Source of the DNA: Primula veris
Lineage: Eukaryota > Streptophyta > Magnoliopsida > Ericales > Primulaceae
Assembly: GCA_963682055.1 (NCBI GenBank)
Contig: OY821742.1
Coordinates: 9,455,752 to 9,519,751, forward strand
Direction of reading: 5' to 3'
DNA: 64,000 nucleotides
Within the stretch, counting starts at the first letter, position 1, and each line of letters starts with the position of its first letter. Below are positions 25,740-64,000 of this stretch, one piece after another. Below the pieces are notes generated by a model. It was not told the DNA's origin. It searched no databases and saw only the letters and a program-made list of their open reading frames with translations. The translations under genes and the position numbers were made by a program.

Positions 25740-26237
25740 TGATAGAACATAAAAATTGGACCCGAATATATCTATTCGGGTACGAATCGACCCACCCATC
25801 ATAGAGGATATTACTAAAAGCCCAAGCCCACTTAGCTAGGGACCCATGTCTGAAAAATCCCATGAGATGGAGACATTTGTCAACATCCAAGGGGATATAA
25901 TTGCCTATAAATAGCCAAGTACCCCCCCTAAGAAAGGACCAGAAAATATATCCAAAAAATATAGAGAGAAGTAGAGAAAAGAGAGAAACTCATCAAAGCC
26001 TATCACATCAAGAAACAAACCGAACAGATCAAGAAACGAGCATAGAGATCGAAGAAAGATCAAGATTATAAGAGAAAGTTGTAAAACCGAGCATAAGTAC
26101 GAATAGAAAATTGTATTCCGAGAAGTTGTACCACCGAGCATAATAAGAATAAAGAAGTGTTCATTATTTATCCTATTTTGTATCTCATATTCTTGTTGAA
26201 AAGCCTAACGTCACCGACCAAAGTTATGGCTTTATCA
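25740..26237 (+). repeat. 5' LTR of the Tat-like element
   Basis: 498 bp, TG...CA ends. It matches 43532-44098 throughout, but lacks about 52 bp present in the 3' LTR (around 43,600-43,650) and has a 7-C tract where the 3' copy has about 25 C. Confidence 0.95.
25905..25914 (+). promoter_or_regulatory. TATA box of the 5' LTR
   Basis: CTATAAATAG, identical in the 3' LTR at 43751-43760. It is placed upstream of the C tract and the R-like region, as expected for the genomic RNA promoter. Confidence 0.75.
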
Positions 26238-32281: not shown

Positions 32282-32384
32282 GCTAGCTTACCAGTACAGG
32301 TACTACCTTACCCTTGTTTTGTCATGACATTATCTATCGCTGTTGAATAAATGGAATATTTTGTCATGATGTCTAACAAATCCT

Positions 32385-33195
32385 CCAAGGGGGCATATGA
32401 AATTCCCAAACGGCATGCCCAAGGGTATGCCTAGGAATAATATGAAATTCCCAACATGGCATAAGTGGCTAGGAATACTATGAAATTCCCAAACGGCATC
32501 CCCAAGGGTATGCCTAGGAATACTATGAAATTCCCAACATGGCATAAGGGCCTAGGAATACTATGAAATTCCCAAACGGCATGCCCAAGGGTATGCCTAG
32601 GAATACTATGAAATTCCCAACATGGCATAAGGGCCTAGGAATACTATGAAATTCCCAAACGGCATGCCCAAGGGTATGCCTAGGAATACTATGAAATTCC
32701 CAACATGGCATAAGGGCCTAGGAATACTATGAAATTTCCAAACGGCATGCCCAAGGGTATGCCTAGGAATACTATGAAATTCCCAAATGGCATGCCCAAG
32801 GGTATGCCTAGAAATACTATGAAATTCCCAACATGGCATAAGGGCCTAGGAATACTATGAAATTCCCAAACGGCATGCCCAAGGGTATGCCTAGGAATAA
32901 TATGAAATTTCCAACATGGCATAAGGGCCTAGGAATACTATGAAATTCCCAAACGGCATGCCTAAGGGTATGCCTAGGAATAATATGAAATTCCCAACAT
33001 GGCATAAGTGCCTAGGAATACTATGAAATTCCCAACATGGCATAAGTGCCTAGAAATACTATGAAATTCTCAAACGGCATGCCCAAGGGTATGTCTAGGA
33101 ATACTATGAAATTCCCAAACGACATGCCCAAGGGTATGTCTAGGAATACTGAGAAATTCCCAACATGGCATGTCTAAAAGAATGCCTAGGAATAC
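32385..33195 (+). repeat. tandem repeats with alternating 45-bp and 38-bp units (83-bp higher-order unit) in the retrotransposon 3' region
   Basis: Each unit begins GAAATTCCCAA. One type continues ACGGCATGCCCAAGGGTATG and the other CATGGCATAAGGGCC; both end CTAGGAATACTAT. They mostly alternate, giving an 83-bp period, with some runs of one type at the ends. Non-coding; the open frames seen across it are an artefact of the period. Such 3' tandem repeats are known in Tat elements. Confidence 0.93.
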
Positions 33196-33286
33196 TCAAG
33201 ACCTCCAGCAAGCTGGAGGCATATCTGCAGGTACCAACTGATCCATTACGCAAGGAACGAAGAAAGTAAGGAAACTAATAATAAAT

Positions 33287-33491
33287 CAAGCCCGCATTAC
33301 GGAGGCAATACTATACGACGAATAAATAAAGAGAAGTCAATTAAGAAGAGAAACAATCCAGTCAAAGAAATATCAACAAGACAATGAAAAGATCCAATAC
33401 AGGAATAAAGGAATGAATCGAATAGTCCAAGCCCGCATTACGGAGGCAATAATATACGACGAATAAATAAAGAGAAGTCAATTAAGAAGAG
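33287..33491 (+). repeat. 64-bp direct repeat at the end of the antisense gene
   Basis: 33287-33350 and 33428-33491 are near identical (CAAGCCCGCATTACGGAGGC ... TCAATTAAGAAGAG). The second copy contains the stop codon of the antisense gene's last exon, so the first copy is a duplicate of that gene's 3' end. Confidence 0.88.
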
Positions 33492-36400
33492 CTGCTACAA
33501 GATGAACACGCCGATACAGAACTCAACTTGACCTCCTCGTCATCTGTAGCCGTGTCTTCGTCGGACTCTTGACCCTCGAAACGCTCCTCAGAAACAAGGA
33601 AATCAAAGTTAGTCGTATAAATACCCACATGTTGCCCTACCTCGAGCCGGGCTGCGAATTCTGACCTCCTCGCATTCTCATGGGCAACAGACGCACCTTT
33701 GAGACGAGCTTCGTCCGCAGGGTGCTGACGGGCTTCGTACAGTTCAGCGGAAGCATCATGTCGTCGTGTAGACGCACGAAAGAATTTCATCAAGACATTG
33801 GCATGGGGTATTAATAGCCTCAATTTACCCAACCACTTACCCTTTAAACGCCAATACCGCGCTAGACGACGCTCTTGCACCTCATAAAAATGCTCGGCGC
33901 GTCCTACATAAGCCCTGAATGAAGCAGACTGAGCTCGCAATTTTTTCTTAAGTCGAGCACAGTGGAATTGCAGCTTCTCGATCTTTCCTATCAGGATATG
34001 AGGCAAATGGGCACGAGCTTCTTCTGCTGCATTAGACAAACCCCTGACCCGAGCAGCATCCGTCAGTTCCTGTACCGGGTTAACAGAGGGCGTAGAACCA
34101 GTCTGATGCACCGAAGTAGCAAATGCCTATGAATATAAGAAAAAGAACAAAGACGGAAACATCAATACAAGGAGCCAACAAAGGAAAATCAAAATACATG
34201 GTATTCTTATACAAGCCTGAAGAAAATCTAAATACAAGATACTCTCAAAACTCAATCAGATAGGCCCTCAAGGGAGGCCGAGGATTCTGCTGTTTCAGCA
34301 AAATGAATATCTCGCAGAGAAACTATTTGCGTCCCCAAGCGATCCTTCACGACCGCATCCAATCGGTTCAAGGTCGCCGTGGTCTCTGTTACCCCAGCCG
34401 TAGCATCAACCATACTCTCTGCTCGGGTAACACCACGCATCCCTTTTGCATGCTCATACACCTCTAACGCTCGACCTCGGGCCCAATATGCTTTGGCGAA
34501 GGATAGTAACAGGTCCGCATCTTCGAAAACTGCACCTAACACCAAGTTCAAGCTCGTCACCCGACCTCGGGCTTCATCACGAGATCGACGAAGTGCACCA
34601 AGAAGCTCTTTCGCCTTGCCCTTATTTGCTGTATAGTAGGCAGTTTTCTTGCTGAACTTCTCTCCCAAATCGCGTAACCGAATCGACAAGTTGGAAATAT
34701 GAATATTCAGATCCTCGATTTCACGGCGAGCAGCACTCAATTCCGCAGTTAAGGATGCCTTAGACCTTTCTAGATCACCTATAACAATATCATCTACACT
34801 ACGACTAGGAGCCCAGACCACCATGGCCAAGGGATTAACAGGTACCTGACAAGATTTTTACGTGTCCTTCAAAAGATGACAACAACCAACAGACAACAAA
34901 ATTAACCAAAAAAGCCAAACAGGAAGAAAACGGGGCGCTTATATTATCAACTTCCCAACAAAATGTCCTTATGTATACAAAAAACGGCCCACAATCTAGG
35001 TACCAAAAGACCCTACACTAAGCTACAAAAAAAAAAAAAAAAATACTACAAGCATATTATCAGTGTTCCACCTGAGAGGATGCCAGTGGGGGAGTAACAG
35101 CAGTAGCAGGCCGAGGAGTAGAAGGAGATGACCCGGAATGGGGGCGAAGCGCCGTCGATACCGTATGCCCCGACAGCCGTGGAAGCTCCTCATCCCGAAG
35201 ATTGGCCCAATCTAGAGGTTTAGGCGGTGCACCTTGCGGACAGTGATAAACCAATTCCGACCAGGCTCGGTCCGACAGAGGTACCCGTGCGAAATTCAGA
35301 GCACGAACATGAGCGCAGAAGATGGAAAAATTGGCAATCGCTATAAACTTTGTCCGCTCTTCCGATTGCTCCGCCTTCAAAGAAGCAACCTCGGATTTTT
35401 CAGCCTCCACATCCTCTGCCAGGAGCAAGTTATCGGCTTCTAATAGGTCGTATTTTTCGACCATAAGCTCCTTCTCGGCCTCCACCTTTTTAACCTCCTC
35501 GGTCAAACGCAGATTATCCCATATCGTCTTGTCATAATCGGCAGCTAGCTTCTCCCTCTGGGCTTTCTCCTCAGCCGTTGCCTTACTTTCGGCAATTATC
35601 TTCTCTTTCTCAACCTCGAGCAAATGAGCTATCTCATCGGTCATTCTCTTCTTCTCGACAACTAGCTTCTCGTTCTCAGCCTCGAGCGCCGTCAACTGAT
35701 CCCTCAGAACAACGGAACCCAAGACAATCTGTAACCATAAAACATCAAACACCAGCCAACTAAGGGTATAACAACCTATGTACAAAAAAAAAAAAAAAGT
35801 GCGAAACATACCCGAAGCGCATCGTTGTTGGCATGCTAAATGACCGACGCTAAAGGACGAGCAGCCATCTCCTCGGCATCCTTTAAAACAAGGGGCTTCA
35901 GAGCAGTATACCCCATCCTCAAAGCTCGGGGCTGCTCCAGCAGTTTGCCCCCACACCGACCAATATAACGGGTCATCGCAACCCCGTCCACCACCACTTT
36001 TTCCGAGCTGGGGGGAACTTCTTCCTCCCCTCTCGTCATAGCATCCTCGGCAACCTCTTTTCCAGCTACCACCTCCATTTCCTCAGTCTCAGGGGCCATA
36101 CGCTCACTCACATCCTCAGTTCGGATGGGCGACGTGACAGGCAGGCTCATCGTATCCTCATTCATGTTCACCAAGAGGTTGAGATGTCCGAATATATCAT
36201 CGAACGACCCCTGAAACACAACAATACCCATTGACCGGGCAAGGGCAAGGGTAACCAATGAAGAAGTCAATAGCTGAAACACGATAACAAATAAAGAGAG
36301 GAACAATAGAATTAAACGAAAATTCACAAGACTAATACACGTACATCGGCATTCGCGGAAGCCGCCTCGGCAGAGTCACCTTGAGGAGAGGCAACCGGAA

Positions 36401-37208
36401 CCTCCTCATTCACCGATGTAGCCGACACCCTGGTCCTCTTCGGGGTCCCAGCAACGGGGTCTGCTGCACGGCGCTTAGGACGCGCAGCCTTTTTCCCTCC
36501 CCGAGCAGCACTTCGAGCCTTGACAATTTTTAGGAATTCCTCCCTCGGCTCTGTAGGAATCTCAGGCGCCGGATTACCCTTAGTCACTAGCCCCGCAGGA
36601 TAACCCAACAGCATGGGAACAGTACGGCTGGCTGGATCTTTCATCGGACCAGGTCCCCACCACATCCAGAGGGCTAAGAGAGCCTCGGCATTGGGAGCGC
36701 CGAGGTCTGGCACATCAGGGGCGGTCGTTGCCGGGCCCGGAATCTGGTGTCCAGCGCAACCCCAGTCTCCGGAGGCGATCACAATGCCCAGATTATGCTC
36801 CTTGTTGGTATCCGAAAGCCCAATAACAAGCCGAGAGAAGGCACGCAATGTCTTCAAGTAAGAGCTCCGGTGATCAAAACTCAAACTGTAGACCCCGAAT
36901 ACATCTTTCAATTCGACATTGATCCCTGACAACTCCGACAACCTTCGAATACCATTTAGGGTCCGATATCCATTCAGGGCCAATTGGGCCGGGGCAATCT
37001 GGACAGCCTCAAAGAATGAAGCCATCCATTCAGTGAAAGGAAGTCTAAGACCCCCCGTAAAGAACGCCGAGGAACGCACAGCTACCTCGCCAGCAGGTAC
37101 CACTCCCATGACCTCCTCATCGGAGATAGGAAATCGAATATGAATGCCGTCGGGTATCCCGGCCAACTTCTTAAAATCCTCTTCCACAAATGGGCCCACT
37201 TGAGCCAA
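33482..37208 (-). pseudogene. five-exon antisense gene of the Tat element (gypsy-type transposon domain, then coiled coil)
   Basis: Minus-strand exons by splice reading: 36345-37208, 35812-36210, 35060 or slightly above-35728, 34252-34845, 33482-34126. Exon 1 starts MAQVGPFVEEDF and resembles the plant family called putative gypsy-type transposon or Transposase_28 (IRFPISDEE, LRLPFTEWM, NGYRTLNG). Exons 3 to 5 are rich in long coiled coil (EAENEKLVVEKKRM; HISNLSIRLRDLGEKF). Donor and acceptor sites are good (for example GTACGT after exon 1, TTTCAG before exon 2). A TAG at 35836-35838 breaks exon 2 eight codons before its end. Antisense ORFs are described in Tat elements; their job is not known. 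Whether exons 3/4 and 4/5 join exactly as I propose is uncertain. Confidence 0.72.
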
Positions 37209-38317
37209 GCATTGGGTCAGAATTTCCTATCCAAACGTCATAAAAACTTCATCAATATACTAACCAAAAACAAATCACACGAAGCAGTTTACCTCCCCCC
37301 CCCCCCCAACTACCAGACACCCTAACGTGTTGCCACCAACCCAATAAACAAAAATCCTATATGACAAGACAAACCACCAACCCCCAACTTAGACATATTC
37401 AGGCAAACAAGACCATATATCAACACCACATGCATGACCACAACAACAAATCAAATACATATATTACGAAAACACTTACAGTCATATTCGAGAGCACGAA
37501 GGGGAGAGCACCAGCAAATCTCTCAACAGTCAGGAGAAACCCTAGATAGAGAGGCAGAAAATTTTTTGGCGGGAAGAACAAACCCTAGAGAAAGAAAATA
37601 AGAGATATTTTTTCAGCTAATTATGAGATAAAAACAAAAGGGATTACTTGGCACATTTAAAAGGAATGGAACTACAGAAAGAATAAAATAATAACCGCCT
37701 TTTCGTGTGACAGAGGTTCACCTTTTTTTTTCCAACCACAAAAAAGTCCCCAACTGCTGCTATGTCAGCAAATCAAGGCTCCAGATCTTGCCACGTCAGA
37801 TAGTGTATCCCATTACCCAACGCAGTTCACATCATTACACCTATATAAACGGCCAGTGGACCCCACCACGAAAAGCTTACAGCATACGCTACCCATAATA
37901 ATGCACCGAGGAGGCATCCCGGTCACGTTTCTCGACGCCAAGATGGCAATTATCATAAGACCACCGATCACGATCGACGAAGACCGTCCCTAGCTCGACG
38001 GCTTTTCAGCATTCATCCTAGCAACGCTCTCCGGGGGGATAACCAAGCACTCTGCTCGGTGTGTCTCTGCTCGGTGTGTCTCTGCTCAGTGTGTCCAACA
38101 CAAGCAAAAGTTATATTCATCCACAAAAGGGGATACAAACAAATCGGTACTCTGCTCGGTGTCCATCGTATGTTTTCAACAATATAGACAAAGCAAATAA
38201 AAATAGACAGAATCAAGAATCAAATTGCGAAAGCAGAAATTTTATTCATCCACAAAGGGGGATACAAACAAACACGTACAACGGAAAAAGAAAAGTTTAC
38301 AAGAAAAAACACCCATC
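37209..38317. other. spacer in the retrotransposon between antisense genes
   Basis: Holds a C run near 37,302, probable promoter of the antisense gene (minus-strand TATA-like TTTATATAGG near 37,842-37,851), and short direct repeats (TGCTCGGTGTGTCTC three times at about 38,050-38,095; CATCCACAAAGGGGATAC-like text at about 38,118 and 38,249). A plus-strand TATA (CTATATAAA, 37,842) precedes a 30-codon ORF at 37902-37994; I do not claim it as a gene. Confidence 0.5.
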
Positions 38318-43267: not shown

Positions 43268-43531
43268 GACGTTCTTAGTAATGATAAGCAATGGAATATT
43301 TATGAGGGAACAATCCCATTTTATAGGCAAATAGGGAAATAGCAAGGGTCGCATCGAAGTTGGGTAGCAGGTTTGCAAATCCAAGACATTAAATGGGTCC
43401 CAGGGAGCAGTCTTAAAATAGGGACATTTTTCGATGAAGCATTGGGAACAGCAAGACAGAAGTAGCTTCCTCGACAGACCGAGCATGACTCCCTCGACGT
43501 GGAGACCACACCAAGGAAGTCAGGGAGCACT

Positions 43532-44098
43532 TGATAGAACATAAAAATTGGACCCGAATATATCTATTCGGGTACGAATCGACCCACCCATCATAGAGGG
43601 GTATCCAATGCTTAAATGGGTTATCACTTGCCTTTCTTTGAGAATAAGAGTGGATATTACTAAAAGCCCAAACCCACTTAGCTAGGGACCCATGTCTGAA
43701 AAATACCATGAGATGGAGACATTTGTCAACATCCTAGGGGATATAATTGCCTATAAATAGCCAAGTACCCCCCCCCCCCCCCCCCCCCCCCCTAAGAAAG
43801 GAGGAGAAATTCTATTCAAAAAATATAGAGAGAAGGAGAGAAAATAGAAAAGCTTGTCAGAACTCACCCCACCCGGAAGCAGACCGAACAAGATACAAAA
43901 TCGAACACCGAGATCGAAGAAAGTCCCATATTATTAGAGCAAGTTGTAATACCGAGCATAAGTATAAATAGAAAATTGTATTCCGAACAATTATACCACC
44001 GAGCTTAATAAAGATTAAGAGTTCGTTATTCATCCTCTTTTCACACATTATTATTGTTGAAAAGCCTAACGCCACCGATCAAAGTTATGACTTTATCA
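43532..44098 (+). repeat. 3' LTR of the Tat-like element
   Basis: 567 bp with the same TG...CA ends as the 5' LTR. It carries an extra ~52 bp near 43,600-43,650 and a ~25-C tract at 43,768-43,792. A weak purine tract (AAGGAAGTCAGGGAGCAC) precedes it. Confidence 0.95.
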
Positions 44099-46031: not shown

Positions 46032-46040
46032 ATTGGTTTT

Positions 46041-46107
46041 GAGGTTGGATTAATTAACATCAAAATTTCTGAAAATACTCTCAGACCGTAGATTAAATCT
46101 ACGGTCT
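46041..46107 (+). repeat. left terminal inverted repeat of the MULE
   Basis: Pairs with 55564-55631; the inner part (ATTTCTGAAAA...AGACCGTAGATT.AATCTACGGTCT) is the best conserved. Likely transposase binding region. Confidence 0.88.
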
Positions 46108-46246
46108 GTATTGATTCAATACAGACCGTAGATTTAATCTACGGTTTACAGACATTTGCTGCAAACCGTAGATTAAATCTACGGTTTGCATTGAATCAAT
46201 GCAGACCGTAGATTTAATCTACGGTTTGCAGCAAATGTCTGTAAAT
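46082..46246. repeat. four clustered palindromes forming nested hairpins, left end of MULE
   Basis: ACCGTAGATT(A/T)AATCTACGGT occurs at 46085, 46124, 46164 and 46204. Flanks also pair: 46144-46246 is one inverted repeat (ACAGACATTTGCTGCAAACC at the left and its complement at the right). Three TTACACAG(T/A)CAGTCCCTG direct repeats follow at 46,246-46,317. Confidence 0.93.
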
Positions 46247-46544
46247 TACACAGTCAGTCCCTGCTTTTCAAAATTACACAGTCAGTCCCTGCGCGAAAAT
46301 TACACAGACAGTCCCTGAAAAAACAGAATGTTACGTTTTTTTTAAAAAAAATAACATTTTATTCTACACTCTCTCTCTTTCTCTCAAAAACCCCCAATTT
46401 TCAACCCAAAAAATCACCCAAATCAATCAACCACAATTAACTATCAACTTTCTTAACAAAAAACCCCAAATCATCAATCAAATTTATCCATAATTCAAGG
46501 GTATATCTTTTATTCTCTAATTTATTATGTATTTTGTGTAATTT

Positions 46545-46850
46545 AAATTTGTAAAATAGGAAAAAATATATAAAATATGCAAATCCATAATTCACTTAGC
46601 TATATATAATTGTTTGTTGTTTGTTTATATTAATTATAGAAATTTTAATAATTGTTGATATTTGTCCCATTTTTGCATGTTTTTTTATTTTTTGTAATTT
46701 TAATTTGTAAAATAGGAAAAAATATATAAAATATGCAAAACCATAATTCACTTAGATATATATAATTGTTTGTTGTTTGTTTATATTAATTATAGAAATT
46801 TTAATAATTGTTGATATTTGTCCCATTTTTGCATGTTTTTTTATTTTGTT
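46545..46850 (+). repeat. ~155-bp direct duplication upstream of the PMD gene
   Basis: Two copies share AAATAGGAAAAAATATATAA, GCAAA.CCATAATTCACTTAG and TTGATATTTGTCCCATTTTT in order. Non-coding, AT-rich. Confidence 0.85.
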
Positions 46851-46859
46851 TGGTTAATT

Positions 46860-47895
46860 TGAATTGTTGATAATGTGTTTGGTTATGATTAAAAAATTGA
46901 ATTATTATTGTTTGGTTTATGAAAAAATGTGTGTTTGGTTATGATTAAAAAATTGAATTATTATTGTTTGGTTTATGATTAAATGATTGTTTGGTTATGA
47001 TTAAAAAATTGAATTATTATTGTTTGGTTTATGATTAAATGATTGTTTGGTTATGATTAAAAAATTGAATTATTATTGTTTTTGTTTATGAAAAAATGTG
47101 TGTTTGGTTATGATTAAAAAATTGAATTATTATTGTTTGGTTTATGATTAAATGTGTGTTTGGTTATGATTAAAAAATTGAATTATTATTGTTTGGTTTA
47201 TGAAAAAATGTGTGTTTGGTTATGATTAAAAAATTGAATTATTATTGTTTGGTTTATGATTAAATGTGTGTTTGGTTATGATTAAAAAATTGAATTATTA
47301 TTGTTTGGTTTATGATTAAATGTGTGTTTGGTTATGATTAAAAAATTGAATTATTATTGTTTGGTTTATGATTAAATGATTGTTTGGTTATGATTAAAAA
47401 ATTGAATTATTATTGTTTTTGTTTATGAAAAAATGTGTGTTTGGTTATGATTAAAAAATTGAATTATTATTGTTTGGTTTAGGATTAAATGTGTGTTTGG
47501 TTATGATTAAAAAATTGAATTATTATTGTTTGGTTTATGAAAAAATGTGTGTTTGGTTATGATTAAAAAATTGAATTATTATTGTTTATTTATGATTAAA
47601 TGTGTGTTTGGTTATGATTAAAAAATTGAATTATTATTGTTTTTGTTTATGATTAAATGATTGTTTGGTTATGATTAAAAAATTGAATTATTATTGTTTT
47701 TGTTTATGAAAAAATGTGTGTTTGGTTATGATTAAAAAATTGAATTATTATTGTTTGGTTTATGATTAAATGTGTGTTTGGTTATGATTAAAAAATTGAA
47801 TTATTATTGTTTGGTTTATGATTAAATGTGTGTTTGGTTATGATTAAAAAATTGAATTATTATTGTTTGGTTTATGATTAAATGATTGTTTGGTT
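46860..47895 (+). repeat. 56-bp minisatellite, about 18 units, directly upstream of the PMD gene
   Basis: The core GGTTATGATTAAAAAATTG followed by AATTATTATTGTTTGGTTTATG recurs every 54-59 bp with few substitutions, so the array is young. It decays at its right end into TGGTTATCATTAATTGGTTA units that reach the PMD start codon at 48058. Confidence 0.95.
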
Positions 47896-48057
47896 ATCAT
47901 TGTTTTGTTATCATTAATTGGTTATAATTGAGTTATCATTGTTTGGTTATCATTAATTGGTTATCATTGAGTTATCATTGTTTGGTTATCATTAATTGGT
48001 TATGTTATCATTTTTTGGTTATCATTAATTGAGTTATATTTGGTTATCATAGTTAGG

Positions 48058-50432
48058 ATGGCAGACCCAGGTCCACATATTAAAGGGAGGTTGGGTATTT
48101 TACGACAGACTGGTCACATTTCTAATCAGACTTGGGATGCTGGCAGAGAAGCGGGTAGAGGAGATGCCAATAAGATTAGGGTTTATAATTATAGTTGGCA
48201 GATACCGACGCCTGAAAGGGTAGTTCAAAATATCATTAGGGCTGGTTTTTACGGTATTTACAGTATAGGTAATTATACCGTAGACCGAGGGTTGATTACA
48301 GCCTTAGTTGATAGGTGGCGTGATGAGTCGCACACGTTCCATTTTGTCGGGGGAGAGTTGGGGATATCTTTACAGGATGTAGAGATTATGCTTGGTCTGA
48401 GGGTGGATGGTCTTGCTGTGACCCGGTCGGAGCGGAATGACACGAAGGCGAGCAGGTTGGCTATGATGGAGAGTTTGTTGGGTGTTAGGCCGGCTGACAA
48501 TCAAGTCGATCAAAACTGTCTGACAGTTAGACTTGATTGGATGTTACAGACCTTCGGTGAATTACCCCCCAACCCTAGTGAGGAGCGTTTACTATATCAG
48601 TCTAGGGCTGCCATGCTATTATTACTGGCTGCACATGTGTTTTCGGATAAGAGCAGTGATCAGATTCCACTCTGGCCTCTGCCATTTCTGGAGGATTTTG
48701 ACACATGTGCTGAGTATAGTTGGGGATCAGCTCTTCTGGCCTGGTTAGAGGCTAATCTATGCAGGGTGGTACGTTGTAAGACAACCGGAGTAAGCGGGGC
48801 GGTGATGTTTCTGGATATGTGGGCGATTACCAGACTACTGCCGGTTAGACCGTGTGAAGAGCTGCCGGAAGATGTCGAGCCATCGGAGGGCTTGCCTAGG
48901 TTCCCCCTCGGTTACAGGTATGATATTTATTTAGTTTTTGAATTGGATTTGCTTTTTTATATTATTGTGTCATCTATCATTTACTTAGCTGCCGGTTATA
49001 TTTATTGTTTATCGGTTTTTATTTGTATATTACAGATGGAAGATGTGGAGGCAAACTAACCTTACGCCATATGTCTACGGACATAATGTGGTCCACATAC
49101 GTGACCAGTTTGACAATATGTCGCCTGAACAGGTAAATTTTAATTTTCGTATTATATGTAACTTACGTATTATATGTTGTATATGTTTGCATTTGTCTTA
49201 TGTGCGCAGAATTTATTACTCGTCTATTTTTAAACCATTGTTTATATATTCTACTTTTGCTGATAACAGATAGTGTGGCAACCTTACGGGGATCTCAATC
49301 AGTATCCGGAATACTGCACGCGGGGCCGTTATATGTGGCATTGTTCTGTGCCTCTCATTTGTAATGAGAAGATTGAGTACCACCCCGCGGACAGGTTCAT
49401 GAGACAGTTCGGTTTTGTGCAGCGGGTCCCTACATATATTTGGAAACCCAGACATGGTCACGGCAAGGATAGAAGATATGGGATTGGGCAAAAACACGAC
49501 TGGCCTTTACTAACCAGAGAATTTATAGCCGTGTGGAATGACCGCCACACCCGTCTTATTAACGGCGAATATGGCACGGGGACGTCACCGGGTTACATGA
49601 AATGGTATAGAGAGCGGACCCGCATCTTCATAAACCCACCTGAACTTGCCCCGCCATCTCACGGTTTCCGGGAGCATACAGGGTTGTTCAGTAAAATGGT
49701 AACAACTAATTAAAGTTCATTAATATTTGATTGTTATTTTTCTGTTTGTATATTTCAATACTTATAAAATCGTTTTTGATTGGTTTTTTTTTTCAGAAAG
49801 CGGTATTGCGCCGAAATTTCAAATCATTCAAACAGCATAAATTGAAAACGGAAGTGGACTTACTACGAAAGGACTTCGCTGAAATGGGATTGAATCCGTA
49901 CGGGTCAGCTGATGAACAGTCGGATGGGGAGGATGACGATGACGACGACGACGACGACGATGGTGATGACGACCTACGTTACGACCCAAGAAATTACACT
50001 AGGTCGGCAAGTTGTCGGCGTCCCGACGAAAGAGGCAGAGGGGAAGGCGAATCTAGTAGCGGCGGTAGAAGAACCAGTGGAGGTCGACCCCCGACTACAG
50101 ATCAGGGTCCGGGTCCGAGTTCAAGCGGTCATGGTCGTCGTGCTTCTTTTGCTGGGTCGGGCTACGTTCAGGATGATGTCCCGTTCGAGCATCATCCTAG
50201 TCATCAGTCAACCGACAGTTGGAGTCGAGGGTTGACAGTTACATCCCACGAGCGTGCGCCGCATCCAGAATCGCAGCAGCGACAAAGACGGCGTACGGAG
50301 CTAAACGAAATCGAAGAGTCTGCTGAGCCGTCATCCGATAGATTAACATCGGCGGGAAAGATGCTCCCTATGTCCAACTTTAAAACATTTAGTCGTTACA
50401 AAAAAAAAAAAATGCACTGTTTTTGTATTTGA
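48058..50432 (+). CDS. plant mobile domain (PMD) protein of the MULE, four exons, intact
   Basis: Exons 48058-48917, 49036-49132, 49270-49698, 49797-50432 join in frame to about 673 aa. Start chosen at MADPGPHIKGRLGIL. Exon 1 has typical PMD features: TFHFVGGELGISLQDVEIML, LGLRVDG, then RAAMLLLLAAHVFSD and SGAVMFLDMWAITRL; exons 2 and 3 continue with RWRQ-like KMWRQTN, IVWQPYG and FVQRVPTYIWKP. The C-terminal exon is a basic segment, then an Asp run (about 50 bp of GAC/GAT near 49,932-49,970), then a disordered Ser/Gly/Arg-rich tail. PMD proteins include the Arabidopsis silencing factors MAIN and MAIL1 and many transposon-carried relatives; a nuclear role is likely. It precedes the transposase gene on the same strand. 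The last codons run through a poly-A stretch, so the very end is less sure. Confidence 0.9.
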
Positions 50433-50628
50433 TTTCTATGTTTGATTTGTCAGTTTTATTATTAGCTAGGGTTGGAATATTATAAATTCGTAGGTTTAAT
50501 TTGATTTCTATGTTTGATTTGTACGTTATAATTTCGTAAGTTTAATTTGATTCGTATGTTTGATTTGTATGTTTTAGGGTAAAAAATATTCTGTATTTTA
50601 ATTGATATGACCAATATTGAGTTTTTAC

Positions 50629-51246
50629 AAACCCTAAACCCTAAACCCTAAACCCTAAACCCTAAACCCTAAACCCTAAACCCTAAATTCTAAACCCTAA
50701 ACCCTAAATTACAAACCCTAACCCCTAAACCTTGAACACTAAACCCTAAATTACAAACCCTAAACCCTAAATTCTAAACCCTGAAACCTAAACCCTAAAT
50801 TACAAACCCTAACCCCTAAACCCTAAACCCTAAATTACAAACCACAAACCCTAAACCATAAACCCTAAAATCTAAACCCTAAACCCTAAACCCTAATTTA
50901 CAAACCCTAACCCTTAACCCTAAACCCTAAATTACAAACCATAAACCCTAAACCCTAAACCCTAAAATCTAAACCCTAAACCCTAAACCCTAATTTTACA
51001 AACCCTAACCCCTAAACCCTAAACCCTAAATTACAAACCCTAAACCCTAAACCCTAAACCCTAAAATCTAAACCCTAAACCCTAATTTACAAACCCTAAC
51101 CCCTAAACCCTAAACCCTAAATTACAAACCATAAACCCTAAACCCTAAACCCTAAACCCTAAAATCTAAACCCTAAGGGAATTTACAAACCCTAACCCTT
51201 AACCCCTAAATTACAAACCCTAAACCCTAAACCCTAAACCCCTAAA
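50629..51246 (+). repeat. telomere-like (CCCTAAA)n array inside the MULE
   Basis: About 620 bp of CCCTAAA units (Arabidopsis-type telomere repeat, C strand), with interspersed variants such as CCCTAAATTACAAA, CCCTAACCC and CCCTAAAATCTAAA that themselves recur and give a loose higher-order period. It lies between the PMD stop and the transposase promoter. Confidence 0.95.
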
Positions 51247-51271
51247 AACTAAATATTCTGAAATATACATA

Positions 51272-51380
51272 CAAACCGTACATTTAATGTACGGTTTGTA
51301 CAAATTTCATGCAAACCGTACATTAAATGTACGGTTTGCTTGTTTTATGTGCAAACCGTAAAAGTAATGTACGGTTTGCA
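51272..51380. repeat. three palindromes upstream of the transposase gene
   Basis: CAAACCGTACATT(T/A)AATGTACGGTTTG-type sites at 51272-51299 and 51311-51339, and a changed third at 51351-51379. The text just before them (AATATTCTGAAATATAC at 51,253) resembles the inner part of the terminal repeat. Confidence 0.9.
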
Positions 51381-51458
51381 CCCCTGATTTGAGCAGCGAC
51401 GTTTTACGAATGTACTTTTTACACGGAATCACCGTTAATAACGTAAAAAAAAAATAAA

Positions 51459-51846
51459 CTACAAACCGTAAAAGTAATATACGGTTTGTAGTGTAAATTA
51501 CATTGGATACCATATCTATCAAAATAATTCCGACAACACATTATCACTTTTGAATTATTATGACTTGACAACCCTATCCGAAAATGACTACTCAATGCAT
51601 TATTAAAGTTTCGAAATGACTACTCCAAAAAAAACACTACAACCCGTAAAAGTAATATACGGTTTGTAGTGTAAATTACATTGGATACCATATCTATCAA
51701 AATAATTCCGACAACACCTTATCACTTTTGAATTATTATGATTTGACAACCCTATCCGAAAATGACTACTCAATGCATTATTAAAGTTTCGAAATGACTA
51801 CACCAAAAATTCACTACAAACCGTAAAAGTAATCTACGGTTTGTAG
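51459..51846 (+). repeat. ~178-bp tandem duplication with a palindrome at each boundary, transposase promoter
   Basis: Palindromes CTACAAACCGTAAAAGTAAT...ACGGTTTGTAG at 51459-51491, 51637-51669 and 51814-51846 are separated by near-identical 145-bp segments (CCATATCTATCAAAATAATT; CCGAAAATGACTACTCAATG). Confidence 0.93.
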
Positions 51847-51858
51847 TGTAAACTTACC

Positions 51859-51867
51859 CTATAAATA
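51859..51867 (+). promoter_or_regulatory. probable TATA box of the transposase gene
   Basis: CTATAAATA lies just after the last palindrome and 118 bp before the start codon, a fitting distance for a plant core promoter. Confidence 0.65.
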
Positions 51868-51984
51868 TGACTCAATTTTGCCAATTCTAACAAACCATAA
51901 AATCAAACACAAACACATTTCGGAAATATCTAAAAAAATCCTCATTTCTCCCCAATAAAATATACAAACAAACACTTTTCGAAA

Positions 51985-54681
51985 ATGAATTACAACTATG
52001 GTTATGACAACAACCAATGGAATAACAACAACAATGCGAATTCATCCAGTGGCTCAAACGATGAGCTAACTGATTATTCGGAGCACTTTGAAGTTGATGA
52101 ATTGACTTGGGAAACAAGGGATGAAATGCTTGCTGATCTTGCTGATGTGGCTGGAAATTGGGGTTTCATCCTTACGATTTGTAGGTCTGGAGGGGGTGAT
52201 GGGAGCAGAACACCGTATGTTGATATTGTGTGTGATAAATCGGGGGTTTACGAAAAAAAGAAACCATCTTCCGTAAAATCAGGTACAAAGAAAAAAGACT
52301 GTCCATTTTTCATTAAAGGTTACGTAGTTAATGGTGAATGGATGTGTCACGTAGAAAATGGACAACATAACCACCCACCTCCAACTTACCTCCAAGATCA
52401 AGCACGACGTGCTCGTTTAACCCAAGATGAAAAAGAAATTGTTAAAACTTTAATGCAAAGTAGTTTTAAAGTTGGTGCAATATTAGAGGCCATTAAAAAT
52501 AGAAATCCTGACAATGTATCAAACACTAAAACGATACATAATTTTTTGGCCGGACTGAAATTTAAAGAACGAGATGGTAGAAACCCGACACAGGAACTTT
52601 TTAATTTGTTGGATAGACATCGCTACACATTCTACTATAATATGAACCCATCAACCCATTGCCTTGAGAACTTGTTTTTTGCACACCCCGATTCTATAAG
52701 GATGTTCAAAGCTTTTCCTGATGTCTTGTTAATGGATTGTACATATAGGACAAACCGTTTTAATATGTCATTTCTAGAAGTCGTAGGAATGACATCAACG
52801 AACCAAACATATTGTTTAGGTTTTGTTTTCATGAGTGACGAGACACAAGAAAGTTATATATGGGCATTGGAAAAATTTAAAGTTACATTGGAGGGGTGTA
52901 TACTACCTAGGGTGTTTGTAACCGACAGGGAAATGGCCTTATCAAATGCTTTATCCGTTGTTTTTCCCGACTCTCATCATATTTTGTGCACTTTTCATAT
53001 TGCAAAAAATGTTTTGAAAAACTGCCGTAAAAAGATCCCTGACGAGGAGTGGCAAACGTTTCTAGATGATTGGGGTTTATTGGTTGATTCTGAGTCGATA
53101 GAGGAGTACAATTATAACCGAACTAATTTCAATACCTCTTACAAATCGTACCCTGCTGTGATTAAGTATGTAGACAAGCTTTTAAATGATTATGCTGAAA
53201 AGTTTGTTGCATGCTATACCAACCACACAACACATCTAGGTAACAGAACTAGCAATCGAGCCGAACAACAACATGCTAAGCTGAAAAGATCCCTTTCCAC
53301 AAATACTGGCACGCTTGAAACTGTTTGGGTAGAGGTGAATAGAATTCTAGAAAAACAGTTTGAGGATATTACGACGAAGTTGGATAAATGCAAGTCTTAT
53401 TTTCCACATTCTGAAAAAATGCCTCTATTTATAAATCTTAGGTCGTATATCACACACTATGCCTTTGATTTATTATTCCAAGAACACAAAAAATGTAGTG
53501 GCCAGGCTGATGAGAATTGTTCTTGCGGTTTTAAATTGTCTCACGGTTTACCTTGTCATCATATTATGAGTGAACATATTTTATTCGGGAAGCCTCTTCC
53601 TCTAGAATATATTCATCCATTCTGGAAAAAATTAGACGTAATTGATGATAATGGGAACACCGATGATTATGGGGTAGAGGGTGATCTAGAAGAGTTTAAA
53701 AGTGTTTATGCTAGCAAAACGAATGTTGAAAAATGGCGTATGAAAACACAACTCCGAGAGATAACCGTACCAGCCAGAACATCCGTCAGTGACCCCGAAG
53801 TGAGAGCAAATAGGGGGAGACCTAGAAAAGGCGACAAATCTAGTAAGAGGGATAAGTCGGGATGGGAGTATGTGGAGGAACAGAGTGCTGGTGCTAGTAG
53901 GGACAAGGGTAAAGGCAAGGCGGATGAAACACCGGAGGTAAGGGTAAACCCAACTAGGAGGCCGCGAAACCAGAACCCTAAACCCACCCCCAATAGGCCA
54001 ACCTTCCTGTACAGTGACCAAATATGGGTCATGTTACATAGTTACATCGAAACAGTTTATGATGTGCGTGGGGATGGTAACTGTGGGTTCCGGGTACTTG
54101 CAAATGCGACGGGTAAACAGAATGGGGAAGATGATTGGTACGCGATAAGATGTGAGTTGTTTCAAGAGCTGCAGCAAATGAAAGGTGTTTATTATGAGCT
54201 GTTTGAGAATTTTGACTTTGAAGCTTACCGGTATGATTACATTTTATCAAGTTTAAATTTTTATCATCCTACAGATCCCGCACCTATTGACAAATGGATG
54301 AGATTTCCGTCTTATGGGTTTTTAATTGCTTCTCATTACAATATGCCAATTGTATTGTTGTCCTTATGGGAAAATCAAAATGGAGGGGTAAACGTGTGGA
54401 ACAGTACTTTTTTACCGCTTTATACTGGTCCGCCTCAGGGAACGACATATTACATCCCGACTGTAATGGTGTTCGTCAACAGTTGTCACTATGCTCAGGT
54501 TATTCCTAAAGAAGGGATCTTCCCAATGCCAGGAATTATAGCACGGTGGGAACAAACACGCACTGAGGCAGCTGCGCCATGGAAGGAACTTTTTCGACCA
54601 AATTTCAAATTATATCTGGCGCTGAAAAAGCAATCGGGAAAGAAAAAAGCAAATGAAGAACCTATAGACCTAAGTCCATAA
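51985..54681 (+). CDS. MULE transposase fused to a C-terminal OTU-type cysteine protease, 898 aa, intronless, intact
   Basis: Order: N-terminal Asn-rich leader; FAR1/WRKY-GCM1-type zinc-binding DNA-binding region (about residues 55-130, with VCDKSG, KKDCPFFIKG, GQHNHP); MULE transposase domain with the DDE triad at D251 (LLMDCTYRTNRF), D314 (VTDREMALSNA) and E427 (NRAEQQHAK); SWIM zinc finger from C512 (CSCGFKLSHGLPCHHI); a basic linker with AT-hook-like NRGRPRKGD; then an OTU domain with DGNCGFR (D697, C700) and the late His (CHYAQV, H835). OTU enzymes cleave ubiquitin chains; whether this one does is inference. All catalytic residues I can check are present. Expected action: nuclear cut-and-paste at the element's termini. 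The single long frame of nearly 2.7 kb without stop argues that it is under recent selection. Confidence 0.95.
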   Translation: MNYNYGYDNNQWNNNNNANSSSGSNDELTDYSEHFEVDELTWETRDEMLADLADVAGNWGFILTICRSGGGDGSRTPYVDIVCDKSGVYEKKKPSSVKSGTKKKDCPFFIKGYVVNGEWMCHVENGQHNHPPPTYLQDQARRARLTQDEKEIVKTLMQSSFKVGAILEAIKNRNPDNVSNTKTIHNFLAGLKFKERDGRNPTQELFNLLDRHRYTFYYNMNPSTHCLENLFFAHPDSIRMFKAFPDVLLMDCTYRTNRFNMSFLEVVGMTSTNQTYCLGFVFMSDETQESYIWALEKFKVTLEGCILPRVFVTDREMALSNALSVVFPDSHHILCTFHIAKNVLKNCRKKIPDEEWQTFLDDWGLLVDSESIEEYNYNRTNFNTSYKSYPAVIKYVDKLLNDYAEKFVACYTNHTTHLGNRTSNRAEQQHAKLKRSLSTNTGTLETVWVEVNRILEKQFEDITTKLDKCKSYFPHSEKMPLFINLRSYITHYAFDLLFQEHKKCSGQADENCSCGFKLSHGLPCHHIMSEHILFGKPLPLEYIHPFWKKLDVIDDNGNTDDYGVEGDLEEFKSVYASKTNVEKWRMKTQLREITVPARTSVSDPEVRANRGRPRKGDKSSKRDKSGWEYVEEQSAGASRDKGKGKADETPEVRVNPTRRPRNQNPKPTPNRPTFLYSDQIWVMLHSYIETVYDVRGDGNCGFRVLANATGKQNGEDDWYAIRCELFQELQQMKGVYYELFENFDFEAYRYDYILSSLNFYHPTDPAPIDKWMRFPSYGFLIASHYNMPIVLLSLWENQNGGVNVWNSTFLPLYTGPPQGTTYYIPTVMVFVNSCHYAQVIPKEGIFPMPGIIARWEQTRTEAAAPWKELFRPNFKLYLALKKQSGKKKANEEPIDLSP

Positions 54682-54689
54682 TCGTTTTT

Positions 54690-55515
54690 TTATTTTTAAT
54701 TTTATGTAAATTACTATTTTTTCCAATTTGTTGTAAATTTATATGATGTAAACAAATGTTTAATAAATTTGTTTTATGAAATTTAGTTCTATGAAATTTT
54801 GTTGTAAATTTTGTTTAATTTTGTTGTAAATTTTGTTGTAAATTTTGTTTAATAAATTTGTTTTATGAAATTTATAAGTTGATATTCATGTTTGCATATT
54901 GAGTTAATTTATTTTATGAAATTTATATAATTTATGATTGTTTCATTCAATAAAATTGACGATTGACACCAAATTGACGACTTAGTTAATGTTTCATATT
55001 GCGTTACACAAGTGTTAAAAACAAACCAAATGTACTTCACAAAAATTGAGAGATTGTTAGAATATTAGTAATTTATTTTATGTATAATTTAAAAAAAAAG
55101 GTATTTAGTTTTTTTATTAAAAAACAAATCATGTTTAATTTGAAACAAATATTCAGTATTTTAATTTTAATTAGTAGAATTTTAATTTATGTAAAAAGAG
55201 TAATTTACATAAAATTAAAAATAAAAAACTGATTATTGACACCAAAACTTCTCAAAAATTGACAATTTAGTTAATCATTCAATAAATATCAACTTATACA
55301 ATTGACAAAAATATAACATGACCCAAAAATATAAAATTTATCAAATCAACTTTTTTTGTGTAAATTTGTGTAAATTTTGTGTTTATTTTGAGAATTTGTT
55401 AGAATATTGGTACTTTATTTTATGTAAAATTTTAAAAATAAGGCATTTAGTTTTTTTATTAAAAAAAAAATCATATTTAATTTGAAAAAATTATTCAGTA
55501 TTTTAATTTAAATTA
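54690..55515. repeat. AT-rich repeats at the right end of the MULE
   Basis: TTGTTGTAAATTTTGTTTAA and TTTGTTTTATGAAATTTA recur at 54,730-54,880. A ~115-bp segment at about 55,050-55,165 repeats at about 55,398-55,512 (GGCATTTAGTTTTTTTATTAA). TTTTAATTTTATGTAAATTAC near 54,695 also has an inverted copy near 55,199. No gene. Confidence 0.8.
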
Positions 55516-55563
55516 TTTCATTTTTTTTTTAATTTTTAAAGCAATTTTTCTGAAAAACACACA

Positions 55564-55631
55564 GAGACCGTAGATTAAATCTACGGTCTCAGCGTTTTTT
55601 CAGAAATATTGTAGTGTTTTAAGCTCACCTC
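55564..55631 (-). repeat. right terminal inverted repeat of the MULE, with one palindrome
   Basis: Reverse complement of the left terminus. Contains GAGACCGTAGATTAAATC...GGTCTC at 55564-55590, the same palindrome family as the left end. Confidence 0.88.
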
Positions 55632-55877
55632 ATTGGTTTTATGGTCAGTTTAGCTTAATATATCATTCACTAAAACTAATACCACGTATAGATGGTATTG
55701 CGAATGATGTATTTTGATGAGATTTGATGTCCAATAATACCCACATGCTTCACCAATGCTAATTAGGAGGCACACGCTACACTAAAAAATTCATTTACCA
55801 ATATTTTATTTTTTGAAAACTGATTGTAAAGTGAGTGTCGTTAAATTTAAGCAATAGAATATCAATTAGAGAAATGA

Positions 55878-60171: not shown

Positions 60172-61960
60172 GTGCTATAATTTAGTTCCTTAATTGTTTA
60201 CCAAATGTTTCTTTAGTAATGTACTATCATTTACGCATGTTACGTAAGAGATGCAAAATGTATGACGTTTTTCTCTCAAATAAGTGGTTGTTATTCCCAC
60301 AGAGAGTAACACCACACACCTGATTTGTATTCCCCTACTTCAAGAAATAAATGTTCACTCCCTTAATGTTACGACGCTGTGATGTGGAGTAACAATACCA
60401 TAGACCCGGTACATTAGAAGTTAGATCGTGACATCTACTAAAAACTCAATATGTATTAATTAACTCCAAAATAATTATTTTAAAAATAATTCAAAATTAA
60501 AATTAAAAAATTATATAGGTTGTTACATCCTTATTTATAGTATAGCGGATTCATACAAGTGTTTCTTCTATCCTAGAGTACAACTTTAATTTGTTGACAT
60601 TACAAAAGTCTGATAACTTTAATAGACTCCATTTGTTTTCTTAATCTGTACATAATACAAACAAGATCCAATAATTGATTTTAATTTCTTGATCAGAAGA
60701 CAAACACCAACACCTGTGGTGACAGTCGACAACGAGGAGGGAGGGGTTACGGCATGTGCGGAGGCGTAGTGTGGTGTCGTGTGCAGGGATTATTAAGTCA
60801 AAGGCAGGCGCGGCCCAGACCCAAACCGAGTAAAGTTTGGGCCTTGAGCAATTGATTAGAAAAAAAAATTACAGGCAACATCCGACTATATTTTTAGTAT
60901 ATTTGGTAGTTAAAATAAAAATATTAAACACCAATTTGTTTACAATGTTTTGCAATAACTTAAATGATAAAGTAGTTTAATATACATAAAAGATCATGAG
61001 TTCGAAACTCTTTATTTACAATTAATTTTGTTTTCATTTTGATTTGTATTTATCAAGCAACAAACAAAATTCGAGTTTTACGTATTTCGAGAAACCGGAC
61101 CCGCACCGGTCAAAGGGGGCAATGACAAAAATTAGTTTGAATTAAGGAAAAAATATATATATATATCAAACTAAGTATTCCCAAAAACTAATATTGCATA
61201 AAATACTAAAAAAAACTCCAAATTCTCTCTTAGCAATGGATTTTTTTAGCTAGGAAAAGTAATTCCCAAACTATGGTTCTTTTGAAACTATTTACCAATC
61301 ACGGTTATTTATTATAAAAAGATCATGCTATTCTAACTCTATTCTTAAATAACTCTCCAACTATCATCATATACATATTATCATATACATTTTTAAACGA
61401 TTCCTAAATAACTTCACATCTTTAATTGTATTTAATCAAAAAAAAATATCATAGAAGGGATCAAATAGATAGATTGCAAATTTACACGGCCTTTGTATTA
61501 TACTTCCTCCGTTTTCAATTAATTGTTTTCTACGAAATTACATATAATTTTGATTGGTTTATTACATGTATCAAAATTTTCACTCCGATAATTTTGATAT
61601 AAGTTATTGACCGATTAAATTAGACGTAGTTTCATAATGAAGAAAATTAATTTGGAACAGAGTTAGTAATTTTTTTCTCCATTTTTATTTGTGCATTTCA
61701 TTGGACCAAAAGTTGACCCGACCCGGATATATAACAAATATTACTATTATATTTATCAAATTTCCCTTAAACCCTACAAACCTGTTTTTAGGGTTTCAAG
61801 GAAAAAAAATTCCAACTTCAGCCTCTGTCAATACAACAATCAATAGATACATATACATATAAATAAATAAATATATATATTCAGAATACCCAAGCCATGA
61901 GTTTTACCATTAGCTCCAAAACCAAAAATAAAACCAAAACCCTAATCTCACTTATCAGAG
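60172..61960. other. intergenic region between P450 and NAF1
   Basis: 60,172-60,630 still matches 20,265-21,290 in patches (P450 3' flank). A Stowaway MITE lies at 61503-61666. GAGTTCGAAACTC near 60,998 looks like a pol III B box without a clear partner. Start of NAF1 5' UTR with a uORF near the right end. No other gene. Confidence 0.6.
61503..61666. mobile_element. Stowaway-like MITE, 164 bp
   Basis: CTTCCTCCGTTTTCAATTAA at the left and the imperfect complement (ATTAATTTGGAACAGAGTTAG) at the right, flanked by TA. AT-rich, no ORF. Confidence 0.8.
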
Positions 61961-61983
61961 ATGTTACCAAATCTCACAATTGA
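61897..61983 (+). promoter_or_regulatory. upstream ORF overlapping the NAF1 start codon
   Basis: ATG at 61897 (CAAGCCATGAG) opens a 28-codon frame that ends at TGA 61981-61983, after the NAF1 ATG at 61961 and in another frame. If the transcript starts upstream, ribosomes that use it cannot simply resume at NAF1. Confidence 0.5.
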
Positions 61984-62875
61984 AGAACCAAACAACAAAT
62001 CTGAGCAAAACCCACTTCAATTAGATCCTTCAATTACTGATCTTGAGGATTTTTGTTCTTCTTTTCTCGATTTTGATTCTATTAAGGATTGGCAAGAACA
62101 GGGTTTACCTATGGATGACGTGGCAATTTCAAACCTTAATTTAGAAAAGGATGGTACCTTTGAGAAATTTGGGGATTTGGGTACTTTAATTGGTGAAAAT
62201 ATGGAGAAGGTTAAGCTTGAAGATAATAAAAGTTTTAATTTGGAAAAAGATGATACCTTTGAGAAATTTGGAGATTTGGGTACTCTAATTGGTGAAAATA
62301 TGGAGAAGGTTAAGCTTGAAGATAATAAAAGTTTTAATTTGGAAAAAGATGATACCTTTGAGAAATTTGGAGATTTGGGTACTCTAATTGGTGAAAATAT
62401 GGAGAAGGTTAAGCTTGAAGATAATAAAAGTTTTAATTTGGAAAAAGATGATACCTTTGAGAAATTTGGAGATTTGGGTACTTTAATTGATGAAAATATG
62501 AATAGTGTTAAGCTTGTGGAGTTGAATAATAATAAAGGTTTGGATTCTAAATTGGAAAAGGGTGATACTATTGGGAAATTTGAGGGTTTGGGTACTTTAA
62601 TTGATGAAAATATGGGGAAGGTTAGTGTAAAGAGTGAGGAAGTTGAGAGTGATGATAGTTCTTCGGATAGTGAGAGTGAGAGTGAGAGTGAGTCGTCGGA
62701 TTCTTCTTCGAGTAGTGAAGAGGATGTGGAGCGTGTGAAGGAGAAGGTTGAAATGGAGGATGGTGAAATACACGATTCAGATGTGGAGAAGATGGTGGGT
62801 TGGAGTGAAGATGAGTTTGGTGACGAGGATGGCGGGATTCCGAAAGGGCCTATTAAGTCTAGAAATGAGATTAAG
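61961..62875 (+). CDS. NAF1: NAF1 (H/ACA snoRNP assembly factor), first exon; rest lies beyond the window
   Basis: 305 codons from MLPNLTIEEPNNK to a splice donor (AAG then GTATTG at 62876). The end of the exon, GEIHDSD, then a W-SEDE acidic stretch and GPIKSRNEIKVL, is the run-in to the NAF1 core domain of plant proteins, and a Ser/Asp/Glu-rich stretch precedes it. NAF1 brings dyskerin (NAP57/CBF5) to nascent H/ACA RNAs in the nucleus before GAR1 replaces it. A 33-aa repeat is present four times, plus a diverged fifth, at about residues 60-220. The core domain is not in the window, so identity rests on the linker region. Confidence 0.78.
62140..62515 (+). repeat. 99-bp in-frame tandem repeat in NAF1 exon 1
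   Basis: Four near-identical 99-bp units (LEKDDTFEKFGDLGTLIGEN, then MEKVKLEDNKSFN) and a diverged fifth unit to about 62,620. The nucleotide identity between units is very high, so the expansion is recent. Confidence 0.95.
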
Positions 62876-64000
62876 GTATTGAGCTCTATCTTCTTCTTTA
62901 ATCTGTTTAAGTATCAATGTTTTTTTTGGGGGTAAGTTTCAGTGCTTGCTTGGTTGTGTCTATTAAGCAATAGTTTTTTTTAGACAAGAGAAATATTTTG
63001 GTGAATCCAGGTTAAGGCTTTATCTTACACCACAGAAGGAAAAAGAAAGCCGGCGTAATAGCTGTACAACCAAATGCACTGATCACTTTAGAAGCAAAGC
63101 AAATTGTCAAATAGAGATGTTGTTTTAAAGTCATTTATCAGTTTCATGTTTCATACTCGTTTTGTATGTAAACATATGGATATTGAGGAAGCTTACATGA
63201 AAATATTTTGGCAATAGCTGTGACTTAGCAAACCAGTACTGGAATGAGGGAGATATTCTAAGCACTAGTTGTATTTAATTATAAAAATAATTTATTTGGA
63301 GACACTGAGCATTCGTAGTTTGAAACCATAGGTATTTCTTTTTACTAGTTAAAGAAACCAGTACTAGAGCACTGTTCAATACAAGGATGAAACAAAAGCC
63401 AAATTCTTTTTTGCAGTTTTTTTCTTTCCGGCACAAATTAATGTAAAATACTATGTGCGATCTCTACTCTAAGCAGAATCCCGACTTAACGGAACAAGGC
63501 AAGAGCATCACGACAGATTTGATATCTTTTGGGGAATTTCTGGGCAATTTTTAGGCCTTTTTTTTTTTAACGTTTGAATTTAGTTCGTAGTCTGACAATA
63601 GACTGGGTAAACAATGACAAGGATATACCTATAGTTTTGCAATTTTGTTTATAGTGCCTTGTATAGTTTTGTTGTGCGTGTCGGTTTACTACAGAAAACA
63701 ACACGAACTCAGAACTCTACTAAGGTGATTGAACCTATTTTGAAATAGTGACATGGCAGAGTTGAGGTTTCATGAACCAAAATTTAAAATCTTTTTAACC
63801 ATTTTGACAAATGTTGTCTCTCATACTTCAAAAAGCATAGTATTTGCTATTTTCTTAACGAGATTCTATTTATTTGTTTTGATGCCCATGGGACTTCAGT
63901 ATCTCTAAGCTTTTATTGTGTGTGTGTGTGTCGGTCTGCGTGTGTCACTGTGTTCGTTTCTATTTATATCCATTATGAAGAACAATTTGCACAATAGCTA
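62876..64000 (+). other. NAF1 intron 1 (open at window end)
   Basis: AT-rich with no exon that I recognise as the NAF1 core. A (TG)n tract lies near 63,918-63,931. Confidence 0.5.

Follow-up and report, generated by a model that had tools for sequence, protein, structure and literature searches.

A complete Mutator-like element of Primula veris pairs a plant mobile domain gene with a transposase bearing an OTU-like tail

Introduction

What does a DNA transposon gain by carrying a plant mobile domain (PMD) gene beside its transposase? The question is raised by a 64,000-nt stretch of Primula veris contig OY821742.1 (the window, whose numbering is used throughout), which contains a complete Mutator-like element (MULE) of 9,591 bp at 46041–55631. 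The element encodes a PMD protein and a transposase whose tail resembles ovarian tumour (OTU) proteases. Silencing in plants requires host PMD proteins, and the domain is also found in many plant MULEs, although its function is described as unknown (PMC5418596, PMC8616336). We think it fairly likely that this is a two-gene MULE in which a VANC-like PMD protein would relieve silencing and the transposase with its OTU-like tail would move the element; what the two proteins do is inferred throughout.

Boundaries and integrity of the element

The element is delimited by the following features.

46032–46040, unstranded: left target-site duplication ATTGGTTTT (terminus comparison)
46041–46107, + strand: left terminal inverted repeat (54/67 against the right end)
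55565–55631, − strand: right terminal inverted repeat (54/67 against the left end), containing one palindrome at 55568
55632–55640, unstranded: right target-site duplication ATTGGTTTT (terminus comparison)

The 9-bp duplication is identical at 9/9 positions (~7e-6 by chance, given the base composition), and the inverted ends agree at 54 of 67 positions; the best of 20,000 random 67-mer pairs drawn from the flanks reached 35 identities. Three marks of the MULE superfamily are present: a MULE-type transposase, a target-site duplication of ~9 bp and terminal inverted repeats, a feature of most members. A composite of two elements is ruled out, because both termini match and share one duplication. 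The preliminary description of this locus, which had claimed an intact MULE with a perfect 9-bp duplication, is upheld, and one refuting case that it had named, termini from two different elements, does not apply. The window holds no further copy of the MULE, only a single 40-bp match. Observed/expected CpG ratios are 0.90 for the element, 0.67 for PMD exon 1, 0.75 for the transposase and 0.78 and 0.73 for the flanks, values from which neither age nor methylation can be deduced. The MULE is a complete DNA transposon with a two-gene kit, and is probably autonomous.

An open PMD gene upstream of the transposase

The first gene (48058–50432, + strand) comprises four exons.

48058–48917, + strand: PMD exon 1, start codon at 48058 (gene model; Pfam PMD)
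49036–49132, + strand: PMD exon 2 (gene model; GT-AG)
49270–49698, + strand: PMD exon 3 (gene model; GT-AG)
49797–50432, + strand: PMD exon 4, with an acidic then basic tail and the stop codon (gene model)

The introns (118, 137 and 98 bp) are GT-AG in 3/3 cases. The 673-aa product matches Pfam PMD (PF10536) at E 7.6e-66 (223.1 bits against a cut-off of 34.9), and coverage of the full profile supports the splicing model. An open PMD gene inside the MULE and upstream of its transposase is thus confirmed, as first described.

To place this protein we built a tree of 38 rows, comprising the window PMD and 37 of 41 matches (the short P0012, P0016, P0035 and P0043 were dropped). The branch leading to the window PMD is long (1.81) and joins it to no relative with good support; P0039, which the tree places beside it, carries a long-branch flag. 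Three Vitis proteins in which PMD is fused to a MULE transposase (P0031, P0038 and P0040) group together, with the window PMD elsewhere; the branch separating them is not starred, and the tree speaks neither for nor against a common origin of the window PMD and the Vitis fusions. As PMDs occur with these other transposases, PMD and the window type of transposase are evolutionarily separable.

A long, isolated branch is what a decaying or fast-evolving copy might show, and host genes captured by MULEs are on record (PMC5418596, PMC2528002). The PMD gene might on that account be a passenger, a host gene taken up by Pack-MULE-like transduplication and functionless for the element. We find this hard to credit: the reading frame stays open through all four exons (673 aa) with the domain complete, unrelated MULE transposases of Vitis also carry PMD, and its recurrence in many plant MULE groups (PMC6446971) is difficult to explain for mere passengers.

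A VANC-like predicted fold

The predicted fold of a PMD homologue, P0015 (the model is of this protein, not of the window PMD), resembles VANC21 by Foldseek, and the structure it matches is the DNA-bound one (9LNJ). VANC21 binds short motifs accumulated in noncoding tandem repeats of VANDAL21, where it brings about a loss of methylation, and anti-silencing is what the VANC fold is known to do (PMC5735166). Weak sequence matches point the same way. PMD exon 1 alone matches DUF1985 at E 0.0026 (18.2 bits, below the Pfam cut-off of 35.1), and such matches recur in 12/39 PMDs at E ≤ 1 in alignment A1 (the window PMD and 38 homologues; A1, like A3, leaves out the three Vitis fusions). DUF7745 is weakly matched by 8/39 (best E 0.0007), a hint of a wider superfamily. 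A fold search of the viral library with the PMD model gave nothing significant. We found no paper connecting PMD and VANC by fold, in a literature search that lay outside most subscription journals and preprints; two papers that mention both discuss each on its own in the text consulted.

Noncoding repeats private to the element

A VANC-like protein would have candidate targets in the noncoding DNA, which is dense with repeats.

46082–46230, unstranded: four 40-bp units, each with palindrome CCGTAGATTWAATCTACGG (repeat and palindrome search)
46530–46849, unstranded: two 156-bp direct repeats (repeat search)
46874–47901, unstranded: 56-bp tandem array, ~18 copies, upstream of the PMD gene (repeat search)
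50629–51246, unstranded: degenerate telomere-like AAACCCT array between the two genes (repeat search)
51268–51380, unstranded: three 40-bp units with palindromes CCGTA-N9-TACGG (repeat and palindrome search)
51449–51857, unstranded: 178-bp direct repeats, 2.3 copies, a variant palindrome in each (repeat and palindrome search)

All 11 matches to the palindrome CCGTA-N9-TACGG in the window fall inside the element, against a mean of 0.02 over 100 window shuffles. Four of them are at the left end and one at the right; the other six lie between the genes and ahead of the transposase. The half-site AAACCGTA has 15 occurrences in the noncoding DNA of the element, none in its coding DNA and one in the rest of the window. 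A 17-mer of the 56-bp unit, whose array was absent from the title of the preliminary description, is present 18 times in the element and nowhere in the remaining window (+ strand). The telomere-like array comprises ~87 degenerate 7-bp units (73% matches), and the 178-bp repeats stop ~130 bp upstream of the transposase start codon. Both the telomere-like array and shared palindromes had been noted before and are seen here.

The placement of the palindrome, common to both ends and the region ahead of the transposase gene, would also suit a transposition accessory, that is, an end-binding or integration helper acting as a second required gene like maize mudrB. Silencing would then not be involved, and the palindromes would be sites for the PMD protein or the transposase. 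A DNA-binding fold, as predicted, fits this role too; what the VANC fold is known for, by contrast, is anti-silencing (PMC5735166), and we regard the accessory role as unlikely.

A transposase with an OTU-like tail

The second gene is a single open reading frame (ORF) with two recognizable parts.

51985–54681, + strand: transposase gene, 898 aa, single exon (ORF; Pfam)
52723–53010, + strand: MULE transposase domain, residues 247–342 (Pfam)
54040–54540, + strand: OTU-like segment (motifs; phmmer against the PDB)

Pfam assigns the MULE domain PF10551 (E 3.1e-28, above cut-off) and a match to the related ZSWIM1-3 RNaseH-like family PF21056 (E 5.2e-16); N-terminal FAR1 and SWIM zinc finger matches are both sub-cut-off, and PF03108 (DBD_Tnp_Mut) is not matched. 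Residues D251, D314 and, further on, E427, which we presume to be catalytic by analogy with DDE transposases, occupy columns that are invariant among four aligned sequences.

The tail, from residue ~686 on, carries GDGNC at 696–700 (C700, codon 54082) and CHYAQ at 834–838 (H835, codon 54487), which we take to be the motifs that hold the catalytic Cys and His in OTU proteases. A phmmer search of the PDB with this segment returned VCPIP1 chains only, weakly (three sequences, best E 0.0065). Pfam gave no OTU match in the transposase up to E 1, NCBIfam and PHROGs gave nothing for the segment, and an AlphaFold model from two sequences was unusable (mean predicted local distance difference test score 30.3). 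Given two motifs and a weak VCPIP1 match, with neither a Pfam match nor a usable model, the OTU call is likely, not proven: by sequence the segment is probably an OTU domain of weak family assignment. The fusion proposed at the outset therefore holds as an open 898-aa transposase with an attached OTU-like segment, its OTU family being only likely.

Relatives bear on whether the tail works. A database search with the OTU region (351 candidates scored) matched only a near-copy, P0001, and the tail is therefore not shown to be widespread. P0001, on a 3,573-bp ENA contig, also encodes 898 aa, so that at least one other open transposase copy exists in the databases, on a contig too short to show PMD linkage. 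It differs from the window transposase at 18 residues, 11 of them within residues 655–898, 27% of the length (hypergeometric p 0.0024). Such clustering is expected under relaxed constraint or fast evolution and, like the absent Pfam match up to E 1, the weak VCPIP1 similarity and the unusable model, would fit a degenerate or unrelated segment rather than a working deubiquitinase. GDGNC and CHYAQ are nevertheless both retained in P0001 and in the window copy, and Malus P0002 (31% identity at 80% query coverage) contains a related MULE transposase, then DVLGDGNCGYRV, then its end, sharing the GDGNC start at this position; the OTU case there amounts to ~30 residues. We lean towards an OTU domain while holding a degenerate or unrelated tail to be a substantial possibility; the OTU-like tail is possibly inactive. 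Viral and bacterial/archaeal collections contained no relative of the transposase or of the OTU-like segment, as expected for a plant element.

A proposed division of labour

As we picture it, the PMD protein would bind repeated motifs in the noncoding DNA of its own element, as VANC21 does in VANDAL21; this binding would relieve silencing locally and allow the transposase to be expressed, which would then bind the ends and cut and paste the element. The OTU-like tail would strip ubiquitin from its own transposase, or from some partner located at the element's ends, and may stabilize the transposase. The role of the PMD protein as a repeat-binding opener is suggested by a layout that matches VANDAL21, with a second gene of predicted VANC fold and dense noncoding repeats of the element's own. 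The palindromes are candidate sites for either protein, and since they are present in both ends they may equally be those of the transposase. The preliminary description had guessed that the PMD protein and the OTU domain act against silencing or shield the transposase from ubiquitin. A protective role of the OTU part stays a conjecture about a segment whose family is itself weakly assigned; the PMD half of the guess gains independent support from the P0015 fold and the weak DUF1985 matches, although the idea was not new, Ikeda et al. (2017) having suggested anti-silencing use for MULE-captured PMDs (PMC5418596).

Several points weigh against this reading. The fold was modelled for P0015 in place of the window PMD, and its match to VANC21 is modest (identity 10%, TM-scores 0.36/0.44, root-mean-square deviation 6.0). 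A PMD profile search of PDB sequences does not retrieve VANC21, every DUF1985 match in the PMDs is under the Pfam cut-off and the PMD consensus has no match to DUF1985. Neither strand of the element contains the motifs known for VANC21 and VANC6, as expected for a diverged protein and of no help here, and the sites of VANC proteins are reported to be tandem motifs in a single orientation, which the palindromes are not. To these is added the weak OTU assignment. Lastly, MAIN and MAIL1, two PMD proteins of the host, act in favour of silencing (PMC5418596, PMC7156037); the sign of a PMD effect is therefore not given by the fold, and a PMD need not be an anti-silencer.

MAIN and MAIL1 act jointly and with PP7L in silencing (PMC7156037), and a relative could compete with them. 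The PMD protein might accordingly imitate MAIN/MAIL1 and poison their silencing complex as a dominant-negative decoy that does not bind element DNA. Such a decoy, which strikes us as improbable, would leave the element-specific repeats unexplained, and the predicted fold matches a DNA-bound protein.

Returning to a repeat-binding PMD protein, its predicted likeness to VANC21, solved on target DNA, offers a concrete hypothesis for PMD, that of DNA recognition. The repeats of the element provide a candidate target set, by which the older anti-silencing guess becomes testable, and if true it would connect MAIN/MAIL1, which serve silencing in the host, with a protein by which transposons counter it. 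A bolder extension, which we offer tentatively and doubt more than we believe, is that PMD, DUF1985/VANC and perhaps DUF7745 form one superfamily of transposon-borne, sequence-specific DNA-binding modulators of silencing. Transposon PMDs would be the anti-silencing branch and recognize repeats of the element that encodes them (in this case perhaps the ACCGTA/TACGGT palindromes), host MAIN/MAIL would be relatives turned to silencing, and the Primula element would join such a factor to a deubiquitinase-tailed transposase.

Surroundings of the element

The MULE adjoins a long terminal repeat (LTR) retrotransposon. LTR-like direct repeats at 25737–26237 and 43529–44098, ~17.8 kb apart (71 bp at 98.6%, 455 bp at 81%), enclose Gypsy-type reverse transcriptase, RNase H and integrase ORFs (28658–32281), with an 83-bp minisatellite (32300–33201) downstream of the integrase ORF. 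Several minus-strand ORFs of 179–340 aa run antisense to the retrotransposon genes (33482–37226); the three tested had no Pfam match at E ≤ 0.01. Further left are two inverted repeats, one with 349-nt arms (20415–20763/20785–21133, 96% complementary, 21 nt apart), possibly a foldback element or miniature inverted-repeat transposable element, and one with 171-nt arms (23215–23385/23406–23576, 85% complementary). To the right lie a cytochrome P450 gene (57714–60171; first ORF p450 E 9.4e-20, later ORFs by eye) and an ORF (61946–62935) of repeated ~32-residue units of the NLEKDDTFEKFGDLGTLIGENMEKVKLEDNKS type.

Comparison with known systems

A close parallel is Arabidopsis VANDAL21 (Hiun) with VANC21, likewise a MULE with 9-bp duplications, noncoding tandem repeats and, beside the transposase, a second gene of (here predicted) VANC/PMD fold. 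The Primula element differs in that its accessory gene encodes a full PMD (Pfam E 7.6e-66) that matches DUF1985 only weakly, in having clear inverted ends and an OTU-like transposase tail, and in lacking the known VANC motifs; no VANB-like gene was seen in it.

PMD itself is familiar from plant MULEs. Ikeda et al. (2017) describe fusions of PMD-C with MULE transposases from grasses and Amborella (PMC5418596), and Dupeyron et al. (2019) list PMD for MULE groups 42 and 46–50 and, for VANDAL, 'PMD and/or DUF in half the members' (PMC6446971). Groups 42 and 45–50 and the Vitis fusions share the association of PMD with a MULE transposase, whereas in Primula the PMD gene stands apart from the transposase gene and is read in the same direction. 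The Primula transposase matches PF21056 and not PF03108, unlike Vitis P0031 and P0038, which carry DBD_Tnp_Mut (PF03108), and has an OTU-like tail, whereas the table in PMC6446971 lists no OTU for its PMD groups.

For the tail, the same paper lists an OTU gene in MuDR-6_HM of Hydra (group 14), a MULE likened here by its table entry; it is an animal element with no PMD listed. Ginger1 elements with OTU or Ulp1 tails and Mutator elements with Ulp1 were described by Bao et al. (2010; PMC2836005). Kaonashi (KIU) and other Ulp1-bearing MULEs, together with Ginger1, share a ubiquitin- or SUMO-type cysteine protease on a transposon (PMC13317346, PMC2836005); the MULEs among them carry Ulp1 rather than OTU, and Ginger1 belongs to another transposase superfamily.

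The earlier statement that the element matches no named family must be narrowed accordingly. Earlier literature already contains plant MULEs with PMD, a Hydra MULE with an OTU gene and the proposal that PMDs of MULEs counter silencing; a separate PMD gene, an OTU-like transposase tail and a repeat set of its own are what the Primula element adds.
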